From: Veillonella rogosae JCM 15642 | GTDB taxonomy: Bacteria > Bacillota > Negativicutes > Veillonellales > Veillonellaceae | Assembly: GCF_002959775.1 (NCBI RefSeq) | Contig: NZ_PPCX01000006.1 | Location: forward strand, 1 to 64,000 | DNA: 64,000 bases | Reading direction: 5' to 3' | Part shown: one piece after another, positions 44,219-52,918 of the stretch | Layout of the letters: every line of letters begins with the position of its first letter | Numbering within the stretch: the stretch's first letter is position 1 | Program-made: the position numbers and the translations under genes | The notes under the pieces: model-generated | Database searches by the model: none | What the model was told of the DNA's origin: nothing | What the model saw: the letters and a program-made list of their open reading frames with translations, nothing else

Positions 44219-44623
44219 ATGAACATTTTGATAGATATTTGTAAACGATCTTTTTATTTGAATCTATTTATCGTGGTAATTCCGATTATTGCGTATATGA
44301 TTCATAATGGATCGAGTGCGACAGTAGCATTAGTATGGTATTTGTTGTTATCCCTATTTATGCCTTGGGCGTATTTATCGTTTAAAGACAGTACCTTTGG
44401 TGATGGTAAATCTATAAGCCGTATTGCTTACATAGTGAGTTGGATTGCCATTCATGGCATTGCATACAAAGGCATTTTCCTAGGTGTAGATTTATCTATG
44501 TTGTGGGGCTGGCCAACTGTAGGCAGAGATGTGGCTTTTTTAGTGTCTATGTATATTGGTGTCACAATTAGTCTAATTGTTGCTTACGGTTTAACTCGAT
44601 TAGTGGGAGGCCGTAATGAATAA
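44219..44623 (+). CDS. Unknown membrane protein, four predicted helices
   Basis: A 134-residue hydrophobic protein with about four membrane segments (around 12-28, 33-52, 66-85 and 103-127). I do not recognise a family. It starts after TAGGAGATC and overlaps the next gene by 8 bp, so the two are translated together and may form a complex. With the ECF S component downstream the trio may be one transport or envelope unit; this is inference. Confidence 0.75.
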   Translation: MNILIDICKRSFYLNLFIVVIPIIAYMIHNGSSATVALVWYLLLSLFMPWAYLSFKDSTFGDGKSISRIAYIVSWIAIHGIAYKGIFLGVDLSMLWGWPTVGRDVAFLVSMYIGVTISLIVAYGLTRLVGGRNE

Positions 44624-45458
44624 AAGTTTTTGGCAATTTACCTTTGTTTGCGCGCTCTTTGTTAGTGCCGTTACGACAGTACTTTCATTAAGTGGTGCCT
44701 TATCATTGCCAGTATTAGTATTTCCCGTATTATCGCTGGTGATACCCTTTATGGTGCGCCGACTAAAGAATGCTAAATTTAATGATGACTTGCCGTTGCA
44801 TATGGGCTATCATACATACAGCTGGGCGTGGTGGACTGTATTTTCTTTTCTTCACACGCCGTTTAGCTTTAATGTAGACAATGGTATAACTAAAGCATTA
44901 CTATTATTTGTAGTGTACTTTATTGTTCAAGTTCTTATTGAACTATGCGGTTTACTAGGAACAAAGTTTTTCAATCGTACCCACCGTTTGGGCATGATCG
45001 ATGAAGCCCTCGATATAATTGGTTATATTATACCGATTCCGTTCTTGTATATCGGTTCCATTCTACATATTGATTTGCAAGATCCCATGGTATATTTTAT
45101 GTATGCATCATCAATGAATGTAAATATATTATTTGCTGAGCTTGTTTTGTTGCTAGTATCTTTATTGGTATTTGTATTTTACTTATATCCTCGTGATTTA
45201 GCATATAAAGGTGTGCGTTTATTGCGCATTGTTATTACTGCAGCTATGTGGCTTGCTATGAATGCTCATATATTATATGGTGGCTACATTCCTGAATTTA
45301 TTTTATCTTTAGTTCCCACCGTTTTCCCAACGTACCAAGGTAATCCGCTTATATTTATAACGCCAGCTCTTTTAGAGGCTGGTATGATAGGTGTGGCTGT
45401 AATTATTGGTGCATTGGTAGAGCGTGGTATTATTTCACAACGCCGTGAAAGTATTTAA
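44616..45458 (+). CDS. Unknown polytopic membrane protein
   Basis: A 280-residue protein with about seven to eight hydrophobic segments. The intracellular-type loops are rich in Arg/Lys (VRRLKNAKFNDD, FFNRTHRLGM) and the C-terminus is basic (QRRESI). No motif or family is recognised. It starts inside the previous gene (GGGAGGCCGTA before ATG) and is followed 50 bp later by an ECF S component. It does not resemble EcfT or an ATPase. Confidence 0.75.
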   Translation: MNKSFWQFTFVCALFVSAVTTVLSLSGALSLPVLVFPVLSLVIPFMVRRLKNAKFNDDLPLHMGYHTYSWAWWTVFSFLHTPFSFNVDNGITKALLLFVVYFIVQVLIELCGLLGTKFFNRTHRLGMIDEALDIIGYIIPIPFLYIGSILHIDLQDPMVYFMYASSMNVNILFAELVLLLVSLLVFVFYLYPRDLAYKGVRLLRIVITAAMWLAMNAHILYGGYIPEFILSLVPTVFPTYQGNPLIFITPALLEAGMIGVAVIIGALVERGIISQRRESI

Positions 45459-46307: not shown

Positions 46308-46337
46308 TTTACAGGCTTTTTATAAATATGATAAAAT
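46308..46337 (+). promoter_or_regulatory. Probable promoter of the SCIFF precursor gene
   Basis: TTTACA (46308-46313), 18-bp spacer, TAAAAT (46332-46337), about 35 bp before the start codon and just after the ECF gene stop. Confidence 0.5.
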
Positions 46338-46371: not shown

Positions 46372-46515
46372 ATGGCTAAACGCATTCGTACTATCAACAC
46401 TGAATCCTTACAAAAAACTGCTAAAACTGGCGGTTGTGGGGAATGTCAAACATCTTGCCAATCCGCTTGCAAAACAAGCTGCACAGTTGGTAACCAAGTT
46501 TGCAAACAAAAATAA
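46372..46515 (+). CDS. scfA: SCIFF (six-cysteine) ranthipeptide precursor
   Basis: A 47-residue precursor peptide. The leader, MAKRIRTINTESLQKTAKTGG, is followed by a Cys-rich core with six cysteines at 22, 25, 29, 33, 37 and 44 (CGECQTSCQSACKTSC...CKQK). This is the 'six cysteines in forty-five residues' family, whose members are cross-linked by thioether bonds between Cys and acceptor residues such as Thr, by a radical SAM enzyme. The maturase gene follows. Strong ribosome site GAGGAGGAT. A terminator between the two genes should give more precursor than enzyme. Biological role of SCIFF is unsettled; signalling has been proposed in clostridia. Confidence 0.93.
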   Translation: MAKRIRTINTESLQKTAKTGGCGECQTSCQSACKTSCTVGNQVCKQK

Positions 46516-46520
46516 TAAAG

Positions 46521-46545
46521 AGGCTCGCTTAGCGGGCCTTTTTTA
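46521..46545 (+). terminator. Terminator/attenuator between SCIFF precursor and maturase
   Basis: AGGCTCGC (46521-46528), TTA loop, GCGGGCCT (46532-46539), then six T residues. Confidence 0.85.
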
Positions 46546-46681
46546 TTTATGTTTATAATACATACCTTGTATGGTATATCTTTATGACTCTTTTCATAAC
46601 CTTTACGTTAGAAATGTGGTACAATTATCTAGAAAGTTCTATATACTAGAACTTTTACCATACATATCAATTGGAGGTACC

Positions 46682-48091
46682 ATGTTAGAATTAAAACCAA
46701 TGATCCATAAGTTTCGGATGAAGGATAACTACTACTGCTTAGATGTAAATAGCGGTATTATTCACGTTATCGACGAACTCATCGATAGAGTTCTTGACAT
46801 ATATGATGGCACCAATCGCGATGCTGTACATGCTGCGTTAGATGCTAAAGAAGATGCAGTAGAACTCGATGAGATTATGGACGAGTTAGATGAGCTCATT
46901 AAAGCAGAACAATTATTTGCTCCAATGAGTACAGAATTTAAACTTGTAGTAGGTGAAAAGCCTATCGTTAAGGCTTTATGTCTTAATATTGCTCATGATT
47001 GTAACTTAGCATGTAAATATTGCTTTGCTAGTCAAGGTGATTACGGCGGTGTAAAACGTGAGTTAATGAGTTTTGATGTAGCAAAACGGGCGGTAGATTT
47101 TCTCATTAAAATGAGTGGTCCTCGTCAACATTGTGAAATAGACTTCTTTGGTGGTGAACCGCTATTGAACTGGGATGTTGTTAAACAAACCGTTGAATAC
47201 ATTGAGTCCATTCAAGAACAGCACAATAAAATCTTTAAGCTTACATTAACTACGAACGGCATGCTTTTAACACAAGATAAAATTGACTATGTAAACGAGC
47301 ATAAGTTGAGTCTTGTATTATCCTTGGACGGTCGTGAATCCGTGCATAATGCAATGCGACCAGTAGCAGGTAGTGGTGCCGAGTCTTATAAATATATTGC
47401 TAAAAACCTTATCAATGCCGTAAAACAACGTCATGGTTTAGAATACTATGTGCGTGGTACATATACGCATAAAAACTTAGACTTTACTAAAGATGTTATG
47501 GCTATGTCTGATCTTGGTTTTGAACATTTGTCCATGGAGCCTGTTGTAGGCGAAGAAGGGGACTATGTTCTTCGTGAAGAAGATTGGCCAGCACTTGAAA
47601 AAGAATATGAAAAATTGGCAGATATCTATTTGGAACGTCAATTAGAAGGTTGGGGTGAGAAGTTTAACTTCTTCCACTTCCGTATGGATTTGTACCGCGG
47701 TCCATGTATGGCAAAACGTCTTCGTGGTTGTGGTGCTGGTCATGAATATATGGCAATTGTTCCAAATGGTGATATTTACCCATGTCATCAATTTGTTGGT
47801 AAAGACGGTTTCGTAATTGGTAATGTGTATGAGGGCTTGCAAAATACAGAAATCCCTAAAGATTTCCGTAACACCCATGTATTCTCAAAACCAACATGTG
47901 CTGAATGTTGGGCTAAATTCTTCTGTTCTGGTGGTTGTCATGCTAACAATATTACATTAGGTGGCGACTTAGAAACACCGTATGAATTTGGTTGTCGTCT
48001 ACAAAAGAAACGTATTGAATGTGCCATCATGATCCAAGCTGAGTTGGAACAAGCGGGTATCGATGGTAGTATTCCTGTCGCTTTAGGTTAA
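46682..48091 (+). CDS. scfB: Radical SAM SCIFF maturase (thioether-forming, SPASM type)
   Basis: A 469-residue enzyme. An N-terminal peptide-recognition-like region (about 1-90, MIHKFRMKDNYYCLDVNSG) is followed by the radical SAM core with the CX3CX2C motif in HDCNLACKYCFAS, which holds the 4Fe-4S cluster. A C-terminal SPASM domain has Cys motifs GPCMAKRLRGCGAGH, IYPCHQF and TCAECWAKFFCSGGC for further clusters. It is expected to forge thioether bridges in the six-Cys peptide encoded just upstream. The ATG at 46682 after TGGAGGTACC is preferred; upstream in-frame sequence overlaps the likely leader. No peptidase or exporter gene is adjacent. Confidence 0.93.
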   Translation: MLELKPMIHKFRMKDNYYCLDVNSGIIHVIDELIDRVLDIYDGTNRDAVHAALDAKEDAVELDEIMDELDELIKAEQLFAPMSTEFKLVVGEKPIVKALCLNIAHDCNLACKYCFASQGDYGGVKRELMSFDVAKRAVDFLIKMSGPRQHCEIDFFGGEPLLNWDVVKQTVEYIESIQEQHNKIFKLTLTTNGMLLTQDKIDYVNEHKLSLVLSLDGRESVHNAMRPVAGSGAESYKYIAKNLINAVKQRHGLEYYVRGTYTHKNLDFTKDVMAMSDLGFEHLSMEPVVGEEGDYVLREEDWPALEKEYEKLADIYLERQLEGWGEKFNFFHFRMDLYRGPCMAKRLRGCGAGHEYMAIVPNGDIYPCHQFVGKDGFVIGNVYEGLQNTEIPKDFRNTHVFSKPTCAECWAKFFCSGGCHANNITLGGDLETPYEFGCRLQKKRIECAIMIQAELEQAGIDGSIPVALG

Positions 48092-48126: not shown

Positions 48127-50409
48127 ATGAAAGAAAATAGTAATCAAACTATAGAACGCTGGGGAATTCGCTATACCGGTATAGTTCAAGGGGTCGGATT
48201 CCGGCCCCTTGTTTCTATGTGTGCCCATTCTCTAGGATTAACTGGTATTGTATATAATGATAGTCACGGTGTATATGTTGAAATACAAGGTCCTCTAGGA
48301 GCATTACAACTATTTTTAGATGCTATTCAAGAAGAGCAACCTCGTTTATGCCGTATCACTAGTCAAACAGTGCAGCCGCTTACTATAAAAGATGAGGAAA
48401 CTACATTTTCCGTTGAACCATCTCCATTAGGAGAAGATGTTAGTACGTTTATCAGTGCAGACACGGCGCCTTGTGAAGATTGCCTTAAAGAGTTACAACA
48501 TGATAAGCGAAGACAGGAATATTCTTTTGTCAATTGCACAAATTGTGGACCACGATATACGATAATCAAATCGTTGCCCTATGACCGGGAACGAACGACG
48601 ATGAACGAGTTTCCCATGTGTGAAGCTTGTCTAGCTGAGTATGAAGATATAGAGGGGCGTCGGTATAGAGCTGAACCAAATGCATGCTCTCATTGTGGTC
48701 CTCGTTATACTTTATACAAGCCAAATCGCACGGCTGTAGATACGGTAAATGTATGGAATACAACGCGTGAATTGATCAATGAAGGTAGCATTATCGCTAT
48801 AAAAGGGGTAGGTGGCTATCATCTTGTATGCGATGCACGAAATGACGCGGTTGTACAACGCTTACGGAAGCGTAAGAATAGGCCTCATAAGCCATTAGCT
48901 ATTATGGTTGGTTCATTAGATACAGCTATAGAGTTAGTTCAAATTAGCGATGTAGAACTAGATGTATTGACGGGGATGGAACGTCCTATTGTGCTATTAG
49001 AAAGAAATCATAATAGCTCTGTCCGTTTAAGTTCTCACGTAGCACCTGATAATCATATGCTAGGCGTAATGTTGCCGTATACACCGATGCACGAGGTCTT
49101 ATTACCCTCTGATGCAGCCTGGGTTATGACTAGTGGTAACAGAAGCGGTGATCCCGTATTATATAACGATGACCAAGCGTTTAATGAGCTAGGTGAGGTA
49201 GCAGATTATTTTCTCGTTCATAATCGTGAAATCTACGCACCTCTTGATGATTCTGTAGTGATGGTTATCAATAATAAACCACGCTTTATTCGTCGCAGTC
49301 GTGGCTACGTACCTGAGCCGATTCATTGTGAAAGTATAGAGGCGACACCGATACTGGCTATGGGCAGTGATTTAAAAAACGCTTTTGCCCTCAATAAAGG
49401 GAATGAAATTTTAATAGGGCCTCATATTGGTGACCTAGAAAATGCATCTACCCATGAAACGCTAGAGTGGACGATTAATCGCTATGAAAATTTATTTTCC
49501 ATAAAGCCTAACAGAATCATTGTAGATAGTCATCCCCAATTTTTCTCCTCTCATTTAGGGGAACATATTGGTGAAAGCTCACAAATACCAGTTGTGACTA
49601 TTCAGCATCATCATGCACATATAGCCTCTGTTATGGCTGAACACAATTTGATAGGCCCTGTACTAGGCATTGCTATGGATGGTACTGGTTATAGTCCCGA
49701 TGGAACCATATGGGGAGGAGAGTTTCTTCTCTGTAAAGGCAATCAATATCAACGATTAGCTCATATTCATGAGGCGCCTTTACCAGGTGGGGAAAAAGCT
49801 GTCTCTGAACCTTGGCGTCAAGCCTTATGGTACATACGTAATTATTATGGAAATGATATTCCTTATGCTTACCAAACATGGATGGAAAATCTTCCGAAAG
49901 GTTGGGAAATTCTAGATAAAGCATTACAGTCTACAATGCCCATGATACAAGCAACTAGTTGTGGTCGTTTATTTGATGCTGTAGGATCTCTCTTAGGGCT
50001 AGGTATGATACATACATATGATGCACAAATTACCATTGCCTTAGAAGCCTTATGCGGCGAAGAAAAAGGTTCTTTACTTGACTATAATTATGATGGGAAA
50101 GTTCTAGACTTTACACCTACTGTACAAGCCATTATGGATGGCGTTGTACAAGGTAAATCGCGTGCTCATCTAGCTGCATCTTTCCATAAAACAATTGCTA
50201 TTGCAGTTTGTGAAACTGCAGCCGATTTAATGGAACGTTATAAAATTAGTGATGCTGCTATATCAGGTGGCGTATTCCAGAACCGTAAATTAGTAGAATT
50301 GATCTATCGTACATGGCATGTAGGCAATTTATATATGAATGAAGCTGTACCAGCTAATGATGGAGGACTTGCTTTAGGCCAATTATGGCTTGGGAGTCAA
50401 ATCCGATAG
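48127..50409 (+). CDS. hypF: Carbamoyltransferase HypF
   Basis: A 760-residue cytoplasmic enzyme that uses carbamoyl phosphate to make the cyanide ligands of [NiFe] hydrogenase. Domains in order: acylphosphatase (RYTGIVQGVGFRPL), two zinc fingers (CEDCLKEL...CTNCGPRYT and CEACLAEY...CSHCGPRYT), YrdC-like (GGYHLVCDARND...), and a Kae1-like carbamoyltransferase (HHHAHIASVMAEHNL, GIAMDGTGYSPDG). Full length. It starts the hyp run 35 bp after the SCIFF maturase, in the same direction. Confidence 0.96.
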   Translation: MKENSNQTIERWGIRYTGIVQGVGFRPLVSMCAHSLGLTGIVYNDSHGVYVEIQGPLGALQLFLDAIQEEQPRLCRITSQTVQPLTIKDEETTFSVEPSPLGEDVSTFISADTAPCEDCLKELQHDKRRQEYSFVNCTNCGPRYTIIKSLPYDRERTTMNEFPMCEACLAEYEDIEGRRYRAEPNACSHCGPRYTLYKPNRTAVDTVNVWNTTRELINEGSIIAIKGVGGYHLVCDARNDAVVQRLRKRKNRPHKPLAIMVGSLDTAIELVQISDVELDVLTGMERPIVLLERNHNSSVRLSSHVAPDNHMLGVMLPYTPMHEVLLPSDAAWVMTSGNRSGDPVLYNDDQAFNELGEVADYFLVHNREIYAPLDDSVVMVINNKPRFIRRSRGYVPEPIHCESIEATPILAMGSDLKNAFALNKGNEILIGPHIGDLENASTHETLEWTINRYENLFSIKPNRIIVDSHPQFFSSHLGEHIGESSQIPVVTIQHHHAHIASVMAEHNLIGPVLGIAMDGTGYSPDGTIWGGEFLLCKGNQYQRLAHIHEAPLPGGEKAVSEPWRQALWYIRNYYGNDIPYAYQTWMENLPKGWEILDKALQSTMPMIQATSCGRLFDAVGSLLGLGMIHTYDAQITIALEALCGEEKGSLLDYNYDGKVLDFTPTVQAIMDGVVQGKSRAHLAASFHKTIAIAVCETAADLMERYKISDAAISGGVFQNRKLVELIYRTWHVGNLYMNEAVPANDGGLALGQLWLGSQIR

Positions 50410-50579: not shown

Positions 50580-50831
50580 ATGTGCTTAGCTGTACCAGCC
50601 CGATTAATTGCTGTGAATGATGCTATTGGCACTGTTGAATTGACGGGTGCTACACGGGATTGTAGCTTGCTCCTCGTACCAGAAGCAAAGGTAGGGGACT
50701 GGCTATTAGTTCATGCAGGTTTTGCAGTACAAATTGTTGATGAAGAAGAGGCTCAAAAAACATTAGAGGCCTTTAAGGAGTTAGAAGAACTTGAAGAAGC
50801 TTACTTTGCAGGAAAAGCAGAACACAGCTGA
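50580..50831 (+). CDS. hypC: Hydrogenase assembly chaperone HypC
   Basis: An 83-residue chaperone beginning MCLAVPARLIAV. Its Cys2 is the residue that, after Met removal, carries the Fe(CN)2CO unit between HypD and the hydrogenase large subunit. Acidic C-terminus. Ribosome site AAGGAG. A 170-bp gap separates it from hypF; hypD overlaps it by 41 bp. Confidence 0.94.
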   Translation: MCLAVPARLIAVNDAIGTVELTGATRDCSLLLVPEAKVGDWLLVHAGFAVQIVDEEEAQKTLEAFKELEELEEAYFAGKAEHS

Positions 50832-51909
50832 TACATTGTTAAAACGTATCAATGCACTTCATGAACCCGGCGAAACTGTGCGGCTTATGGAGGTGTGTGG
50901 CACACATACAGTGTCGATTTTTCGAGAAGGTCTTCGTCAACTCTTGCCAAGTGGCATTGAACTTGTTAGTGGACCAGGATGTCCTGTATGTGTAACGGAT
51001 CAAACATATATGGATAAGGCATTAGCCTATGCCGAACGTGAGGATACTATTATTGCTACCTTTGGGGACATGTTAAAGGTTCCTGGTAGTTATAGCAGCC
51101 TCAGTGAAGCTCAAACTAAGGGGGCTCATATCCATGTAATCTATACACCTTTAGAGGTGATAGAATTAAGCAAAAAACATCCAGAAAAGAAAATAGTCTT
51201 TTTAGCTATTGGCTTTGAAACGACTATAGCAGTCATTTGTGCTACTGTGAAAGCTGTTCACGAGGCAGGACTAAAGAATGTTTTCTTCCTCGTATCTCAT
51301 AAATTAGTACCACCTGCTTTGCGGGCTTTACTAGATAGACAAGAAGGCCATATTGACGGCTTTATCTTGCCGGGCCATGTGAGTGTTATTATTGGCGAAG
51401 AACCATATGGTTTCTTACCTGAAGAATATGGTATTCCCTCTTGTATCGCTGGCTTTGACGGCTTAGAAATTCTGTCTGCTATTGCTAATATTTTAGAGCA
51501 ACGAAAAACTGGTAATATTGTTGTGGGTAATACGTACCATTCTGTAGTTATGCAGAAGGGGAATCCTGTGGCTCAAGCTATGATGAAGGAAGTTTACGAC
51601 ATATGTGATGATGCATGGCGTGGTATTGGTATTATTCCAAACTCTGGCTTGGCTTTAAAAGATAAGTATGCCGCTTATGATGCTGAGCGTGCGCTACCCA
51701 TTGAGCTAGAGAAACCATCCCTTGATCCAAAAGGGTGTCAATGTGGACGAGTTTTGCAAGGCCTTATTAAACCAAGTGAATGTCCATTATTTGGTAAAAG
51801 TTGTACTGCGGATCATCCCGTAGGGGCTTGTATGGTCTCTGTAGAAGGTAGTTGTGCTGCTTGGTACAAATATGGATATTCCAGTGGTGGATCGACGTGG
51901 GAGGATTAA
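50791..51909 (+). CDS. hypD: Hydrogenase maturation protein HypD
   Basis: A 372-residue Fe-S protein on which the Fe(CN)2CO group is assembled. Key motifs are LMEVCGTHTVSIF, SGPGCPVCVT, GFETT, and the C-terminal cluster-binding cysteines (GCQCGRVLQG...CPLFGKSC...GACMVS). There is no ATG near the N-terminus. The TTG at 50791, within hypC, has AAGGAG 10 bases upstream and gives the usual family length; a TTG at 50806 is the alternative. The overlap implies coupling with hypC. Confidence 0.93.
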   Translation: MKKLTLQEKQNTADTLLKRINALHEPGETVRLMEVCGTHTVSIFREGLRQLLPSGIELVSGPGCPVCVTDQTYMDKALAYAEREDTIIATFGDMLKVPGSYSSLSEAQTKGAHIHVIYTPLEVIELSKKHPEKKIVFLAIGFETTIAVICATVKAVHEAGLKNVFFLVSHKLVPPALRALLDRQEGHIDGFILPGHVSVIIGEEPYGFLPEEYGIPSCIAGFDGLEILSAIANILEQRKTGNIVVGNTYHSVVMQKGNPVAQAMMKEVYDICDDAWRGIGIIPNSGLALKDKYAAYDAERALPIELEKPSLDPKGCQCGRVLQGLIKPSECPLFGKSCTADHPVGACMVSVEGSCAAWYKYGYSSGGSTWED

Positions 51910-51910
51910 T

Positions 51911-52918
51911 ATGGAACGAGTTCGCTTAGTCCATGGTAATGGCGGTCGATTCAGTCATGAATTGACAGAGCGTTTTATTTTGAAATATTTTACTAATGAT
52001 TTATTGGCCCCTTTACACGATGGGGCTCAATTTCCTGTTACAGCAGGGCGCATGGCATTCTCTACGGACTCATATGTAGTACAACCAGCATTTTTCCCTG
52101 GTGGAAATATTGGTAAACTCGCAGTATGTGGTACCGTTAATGACCTTGCCATGAATGGGGCAGTTCCACAATATTTAAGCTGTGGCCTCATTTTGGAGGA
52201 AGGCCTTGCCTTTGAGGAATTAGATGAAATTCTTCGTACCATGGCAGAGATGGCCAAGGCTGCAAATATACAAATCGTTACTGGTGACACAAAGGTTGTA
52301 AAAAAAGGTGAAGTCGATAAAATCTATATTAATACTGCTGGTATTGGTATGATTCCAGACGGGATAGATATTGGACCGCATCGCGTAAAAGCGGGCATGG
52401 ATATTATCTTATCTGGAGCTATTGGAGATCACTCCATTGCCGTTATGGGACAGCGATTTGGTTTAGATTTATCTGATTCTTTAAAAACAGATTGCGCGCC
52501 TTTAAATAAGATGGTTCATGCGGTGCTTGATAAAGTAGGATCTCAAGTTGCCTTGTTGAGAGATCCTACAAGAGGTGGCTTAGGCACTGTGTTAAAAGAA
52601 ATTGCAGATCAAAGTCAAGTAGGGATTAAGGTTGAAGAAACGGCGATTCCCGTTCACGATGAAGTACAGTCTGTTTGTGATATTCTAGGCTATGACCCAC
52701 TATATTTAGCGAATGAAGGTAAAGTCGTTTTAGTAGTTGAACCAGAGATTACCGACCAAGTTCTTCAAGTTTTACATGGTTTTGAAGAAGGAAAAGAAGC
52801 AGTTCTCATTGGTAAAACCTTAGATAAAAATATTGGTAAAGTAGGATTGCAAACAGCTATTGGCGGTGTTCGTCTAGTCGATTTATTAGGTGAGGATCAA
52901 GTGCCACGTATTTGTTAG
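51911..52918 (+). CDS. hypE: Hydrogenase maturation protein HypE
   Basis: A 335-residue ATP-dependent dehydratase that turns the HypF-donated thiocarbamate on its C-terminal cysteine into thiocyanate. It has the PurM-like fold (GNGGRFSHELTERFI, STDSYVVQP, GDTKVV, RDPTRGGLGTVL) and the diagnostic C-terminal PRIC, where Cys is the carrier. The ATG after GGGAGGATTAAT, directly behind hypD, is chosen; an upstream in-frame ATG lies inside hypD. Last hyp gene here; hypA and hypB are not present in the window. Confidence 0.95.
   Translation: MERVRLVHGNGGRFSHELTERFILKYFTNDLLAPLHDGAQFPVTAGRMAFSTDSYVVQPAFFPGGNIGKLAVCGTVNDLAMNGAVPQYLSCGLILEEGLAFEELDEILRTMAEMAKAANIQIVTGDTKVVKKGEVDKIYINTAGIGMIPDGIDIGPHRVKAGMDIILSGAIGDHSIAVMGQRFGLDLSDSLKTDCAPLNKMVHAVLDKVGSQVALLRDPTRGGLGTVLKEIADQSQVGIKVEETAIPVHDEVQSVCDILGYDPLYLANEGKVVLVVEPEITDQVLQVLHGFEEGKEAVLIGKTLDKNIGKVGLQTAIGGVRLVDLLGEDQVPRIC

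Follow-up and report, generated by a model that had tools for sequence, protein, structure and literature searches.

A SCIFF peptide precursor and its radical SAM maturase in Veillonella rogosae, members of a family near-universal in Negativicutes

Introduction

In ranthipeptides, the thioether joins the acceptor residue at its beta or gamma carbon, and in sactipeptides at its alpha carbon. Two SCIFF peptides have been characterized, those of Caldanaerobacter subterraneus (Tte1186a, modified by Tte1186) and Clostridium thermocellum (thermocellin; CteA, modified by CteB, PDB 5wgg and 5why). Each carries only one thioether rather than several, running from the fourth cysteine to a threonine, with the acceptor disputed (PMC8326336, PMC8172795) and the position of the CteA bond differing between reports (PMC8326336); hence, the mass shift expected of a SCIFF peptide may be a single loss of 2 Da. 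CteB combines RRE, radical SAM, and SPASM domains, and the leader of its substrate extends the RRE sheet (PMC6231123). A further ranthipeptide system is PapA/PapB (freyrasin) of Paenibacillus polymyxa. With regard to function, SCIFF disruption in C. beijerinckii altered sporulation and agr gene expression, and gene disruption led to the proposal of a quorum-sensing role in solventogenic clostridia (Chen et al. 2020, as cited in PMC8102284). In Veillonella parvula DSM 2008 and SHI-1, a "sactipeptide-like" cluster of a radical SAM enzyme and a cysteine-rich peptide was described in 2018 as transcribed at a higher level below pH 5.5 (PMC6284299), and a 2026 survey of rumen isolates recorded ranthipeptides of the TIGR03973 family in both Bacillota_A and Bacillota_C (PMC13289728). 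In the literature, we found no isolation of a SCIFF peptide from any diderm Firmicute.

Here, we analyze a 64,000-nucleotide stretch of the Veillonella rogosae JCM 15642 genome (contig NZ_PPCX01000006.1, positions 1 to 64,000; hereafter, the window), in which a sequence-only reading had singled out a 47-codon gene with six cysteines ahead of a radical SAM/SPASM enzyme as a SCIFF precursor with its thioether-forming maturase. All features described below lie on the plus strand.

Results

The precursor gene spans positions 46372–46515, beginning with an ATG at 46372 just downstream of an AGGAGG motif and with its stop codon ending at 46515. The encoded 47-residue peptide, MAKRIRTINTESLQKTAKTGGCGECQTSCQSACKTSCTVGNQVCKQK, comprises a leader of approximately residues 1–19 and a core between residues 22 and 44 with the six cysteines that had been claimed (positions 22, 25, 29, 33, 37, and 44). 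Clustering of cysteines alone is weak evidence, because 8 short frames in the window passed a loose six-cysteine test, compared to 0–4 in shuffled sequences. The identity of the precursor is settled by family models that exceed their curated cut-offs: in profile searches, the peptide scored 84.1 bits against TIGR03973 (equivalog cut-off of 50) and 85.9 bits against PF13165 (cut-off of 27), and the adjoining enzyme scored 587.6 bits against TIGR03974 (cut-off of 425). Similarity of the small frame to SCIFF peptides had been set beforehand as a test of the assignment, and the pairing of precursor and maturase is upheld at the equivalog level. The remark that the precursor is easily missed holds for gene callers only, since both TIGR03973 and PF13165 detect it. 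Two other matches to the precursor were set aside, namely, an Rfam hit to STnc540 (26.6 bits, below the gathering threshold of 38), taken as chance, and the nearest solved structure, epoxyqueuosine reductase (E = 0.011), a spurious ferredoxin-like cysteine match.

The maturase, a 469-residue radical SAM/SPASM enzyme of the ScfB/CteB family (46682–48091), starts with an ATG at 46682 preceded by GGAGG, and its stop codon ends at 48091; a longer, mechanically called start at 46571 was rejected, because the frames of several relatives also begin at the ATG corresponding to 46682. Both sets of motifs previously ascribed to the enzyme were found, i.e., the radical SAM motif C107-x3-C111-x2-C114 (CX3CX2C) and seven SPASM cysteines (C350, C368, C406-x2-C409-x5-C415-x3-C419, and C438). 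The best match in the PDB is CteB (5wgg; 449 residues aligned, E = 7.3e-145), with the radical SAM and SPASM cysteines of the two enzymes aligned. The first 90 residues of the maturase can be aligned with the corresponding stretch of CteB, which is described as an RRE domain (PMC6231123), and no separate RRE model in Pfam was matched. The maturase shares 98% identity with the enzymes of V. parvula SKV38 and near relatives, in line with a host of the V. parvula group. The score against the orphan exception family NF040492 (533 bits) falls below its cut-off of 855, and scores against the sactipeptide maturase models stayed below their cut-offs (RumMC, for instance, gave 125 bits against 720).

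The locus most closely resembles CteA/CteB: the maturases are alignable over their full length, including the radical SAM and SPASM cysteines, the precursors share membership in TIGR03973 and a conserved CKTSCT stretch at the known cross-link site, and the gene order is the same. Nevertheless, the Veillonella host is a diderm, its locus lies beside hypFCDE, and the modification here is predicted. Similarly, Tte1186a/Tte1186 is a SCIFF precursor and maturase, but from a different class of Bacillota, and its chemistry has been tested, with one thioether from the fourth cysteine reported (PMC8326336, PMC8172795), whereas the thioether of the Veillonella peptide is predicted. The V. parvula DSM 2008 and SHI-1 cluster (PMC6284299) is very probably the same locus as the one described here, given that each Veillonella genome encodes one full-length enzyme of this type; it was named a sactipeptide, whereas the bond expected for SCIFF is non-alpha and thus of the ranthipeptide kind. 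PapB is likewise a ranthipeptide maturase, and its model gives 270 bits on our enzyme (P0002), but this is below the cut-off of 340, and the Veillonella precursor lacks the Cys-x3-Asp repeats.

The precursor was detected in 341 of 380 Negativicutes genomes (227 of the 234 good ones), nearly always as one copy, and the maturase in all 28 Veillonellaceae genomes. These near-universal counts identify SCIFF as a class-wide core feature of the Negativicutes, the pair being a standard part of almost every genome; across the phylum, 203 of 249 genomes that are at least 90% complete carry the precursor. The occurrence of SCIFF in this diderm Firmicute is thus no surprise, and it had already been published for V. 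parvula (PMC6284299) and Bacillota_C (PMC13289728): the find is real but ordinary.

Precursor and maturase are adjacent in nearly all loci, and 4 near-complete genomes without the precursor (G321, G019, G042, and G040) are also without a full maturase. One 99%-complete metagenome-assembled genome (MAG; G177) has a normal precursor (L207, G177:C10, near 7803), but no full maturase was found in it, reflecting either an assembly gap or a true lone precursor. In the Selenomonadaceae genus g65, precursor and maturase were assigned to separate contigs in each of the 14 genomes compared, and in the fetched ones, the several kilobases surrounding either gene do not contain the other; in G037, which belongs to another family, the pair is likewise split and both genes are kept. 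The split-pair loci of rumen g65 and G037 are L067, L068, L069, L070, L071, L074, and L079, along with L175 and L192–L199. In named rumen MAG loci, a maturase without an adjoining precursor still scores as TIGR03974. Hence, the pair came apart in at least 2 clades with both genes retained, which supports the view that the two are functionally coupled and act in trans. At such loci, cluster rules based on gene neighborhood would catch half a cluster. Lone g65 precursors often adjoin a gene resembling those for polyprenyl diphosphate synthases, which is a housekeeping neighbor of no evident meaning.

All 30 genera sampled share an identical core segment, SCQSACKTSCT, and all six cysteines, which fall within approximately 45 residues, are kept in each of them, as expected if the earlier assignment were correct; the leader is more variable. 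Core invariance was counted on loci fetched by HMM, leaving out pattern-based column counts, which fix part of the core. Among 42 precursor codons compared across 22 Veillonellaceae loci, 34 vary only synonymously, 1 varies nonsynonymously, and 7 are invariant, indicating very strong purifying selection on the peptide product. A near-invariant core under such selection is hard to reconcile with an arms-race bacteriocin or a strain-specific pheromone, and the conservation favors a common physiological function rather than use as a weapon.

A promoter-like sequence, TTTACA-18-TAAAAT (46308–46337), precedes the precursor gene and is kept in an alignment of 9 Veillonella loci, although the sequence further upstream diverges. 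Between the 2 genes, an intrinsic-terminator-like hairpin with a T-run (46517–46543) bears out the terminator noted earlier. Downstream of the precursor, equivalent hairpins of changing sequence are present at all 23 Veillonellaceae loci, at 8 of the 11 Megasphaera-like loci, and in 19 of the 30 genera, compared to a baseline of 83 among 416 ordinary same-strand gaps, and a second hairpin test was positive in 37 of 42 intergenic regions against 1.8 predicted from shuffles, with many of the counted loci coming from close relatives and thus not being independent events. In other classes, the hairpin is less regular (10 of 19 loci). Ahead of the maturase, an extended -10-like element, TGGTACAAT (46617–46625), is kept in 9 aligned Veillonella loci, reads TGCTACAAT in locus L039, and is a candidate separate promoter of the maturase and hyp genes. 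Given the conserved terminator and a conserved promoter-like sequence for each gene, precursor and maturase are probably separate transcription units. From this layout, a greater dose of precursor than of maturase, as the sequence-only reading had supposed, is plausible: the terminator is conserved, yet the maturase has an extended -10 sequence of its own. Just downstream of the latter lies another conserved element, AAAGTTCTATATA (46631–46655), which in this strain contains the inverted repeat GTTCTA-TATAC-TAGAAC and might be an operator or a 5′ UTR element.

The neighbors are those reported earlier, an ECF S-component gene (PF12822) upstream of the precursor and hypF-hypC-hypD-hypE downstream of the maturase. 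hypF (48127–50409; TIGR00143, 714.5 bits) begins 35 nt after the maturase, with which it is probably cotranscribed, and is followed by hypC, hypD, and hypE (50580–52918; TIGR00074, TIGR00075, and TIGR02124); all 4 are neighbors outside of the SCIFF pair itself. Consistent with the earlier claim, profile searches recognized no dedicated exporter, protease, or immunity gene among the flanking genes, which do not have the makeup of a bacteriocin cluster. Two overlapping membrane-protein genes (44219–44623 and 44616–45458), located between a heavy-metal P-type ATPase gene and that of the ECF S-component, have no Pfam or NCBIfam match, and their order is kept across Veillonella.

The maturase-hyp order recurs in distant Negativicutes families, the longer order in the class being rapZ-yvcK-whiA-deacetylase-(unknown exported protein)-SCIFF-maturase-hyp-rpoN-cggR-gap-pgk. 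In many non-Veillonella families, the gene directly upstream of the precursor encodes an exported-looking protein of approximately 365 residues without a Pfam family (L151:6971–8062 and relatives). Among 31 SCIFF genomes, hypD is present in 21, located no more than 6 kb from SCIFF in 12 and elsewhere in 9, and is absent from 10. At several loci of other classes, SCIFF is preceded by queA-tgt-yajC and followed by secD/secF, as named by sequence inspection rather than family search. A search for synteny partners found no neighbor other than the maturase to be constant across classes, and the maturase-hyp adjacency is therefore best read as inherited gene order. The genome also encodes a [NiFe]-hydrogenase large subunit.

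Discussion

The locus is confirmed as belonging to a known family, in a lineage where that family was already known to occur. To the class-wide knowledge of the pair, the present analysis adds the conservation of core and codons, the terminator and promoter layout, the split pairs, and the hyp adjacency. We consider it highly probable (approximately 0.88) that this is a canonical SCIFF ranthipeptide pair, arranged in 2 transcription units, in which leader docking and thioether formation yield a product with a conserved, non-weapon role. The precursor would be transcribed from its own promoter into a short mRNA ending at the hairpin, and the maturase together with hypFCDE from the second promoter or by read-through. 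By analogy with the characterized homologs, the leader would dock on a putative recognition domain at the N terminus of the maturase, whereupon the radical SAM cluster would generate a 5′-deoxyadenosyl radical, leading to oxidation of a side-chain carbon of a core threonine. Judging by position, the sulfur of Cys33 would bond to Thr35, for which the Cys32-Thr34 bond of CteA is the precedent. The pattern of conservation suggests that the product serves a single-copy physiological role in anaerobic Bacillota.

As to what this role might be, the reading that we favor, although it falls somewhat short of even odds, is an intracellular or envelope housekeeping peptide (for example, a thiol, metal, or redox-active peptide or a cofactor derived from a peptide) needed for anaerobic metabolism. 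Near-universal occurrence in single copy with a near-invariant core, the lack of a dedicated exporter, and the loss of precursor along with maturase in 4 near-complete genomes are all in its favor; however, no partner enzyme is conserved, and the neighbors differ by class, with rapZ-yvcK-whiA and hyp in Negativicutes and queA-tgt-yajC and secDF elsewhere. We tentatively extend this reading to a more specific proposal, namely, that SCIFF could be a core, non-diversifying, and unsecreted housekeeping thiol/metal peptide or cofactor of monoderm and diderm anaerobic Bacillota alike, its dose set by the conserved terminator between precursor and maturase.

It is possible, if rather doubtful, that the modified peptide is instead exported as a quorum-sensing signal, which accumulates and regulates genes, as proposed for solventogenic clostridia. 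The changes in sporulation and agr expression upon disruption in C. beijerinckii (Chen et al. 2020, as cited in PMC8102284) and retention of the pair without local antimicrobial or immunity genes fit such a signal, but genes for an exporter, protease, or receptor are absent at the locus, and a changed transcriptome upon disruption does not show extracellular action. Furthermore, species-specific signaling could hardly be achieved with a core that is near-invariant across the whole class.

A tie of the peptide to [NiFe]-hydrogenase maturation through a maturase-hypFCDE operon, for which the 35-nt gap to hypF, the large subunit gene in the genome, and the proximity of hypD in 12 of the 21 genomes with hyp genes, spread over many families, speak, is improbable, considering that 10 of the 31 SCIFF genomes lack hypD and 9 have it elsewhere, that no such linkage was seen in the other classes sampled, and that inherited gene order accounts for the adjacency. 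Equally hard to credit is an antimicrobial, sactipeptide-like bacteriocin aiding Veillonella in competition at low pH, as proposed for V. parvula from the antiSMASH class and the higher transcription below pH 5.5 (PMC6284299): immunity and export genes are absent at the locus, the low-pH rise coincides with an overall higher transcription activity in that very study, and, because the same core is found in nearly all Negativicutes, the targets would also be producers. Finally, although loose six-cysteine frames are not rare in the window (8 such frames), a chance cysteine-rich frame beside a radical SAM protein acting on another substrate can be dismissed in view of the 84-bit TIGR03973 match and the almost purely synonymous variation across the Veillonellaceae, a codon pattern that already refutes it.

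SCIFF ranks among the modified peptides that are most widely distributed in anaerobic Bacillota. Since the Veillonella peptide is invariant and encoded in single copy, its non-antibiotic reading is testable in that genus, and the clades with split pairs, together with the reduced genomes missing both genes, offer natural comparisons for the purpose of the peptide.
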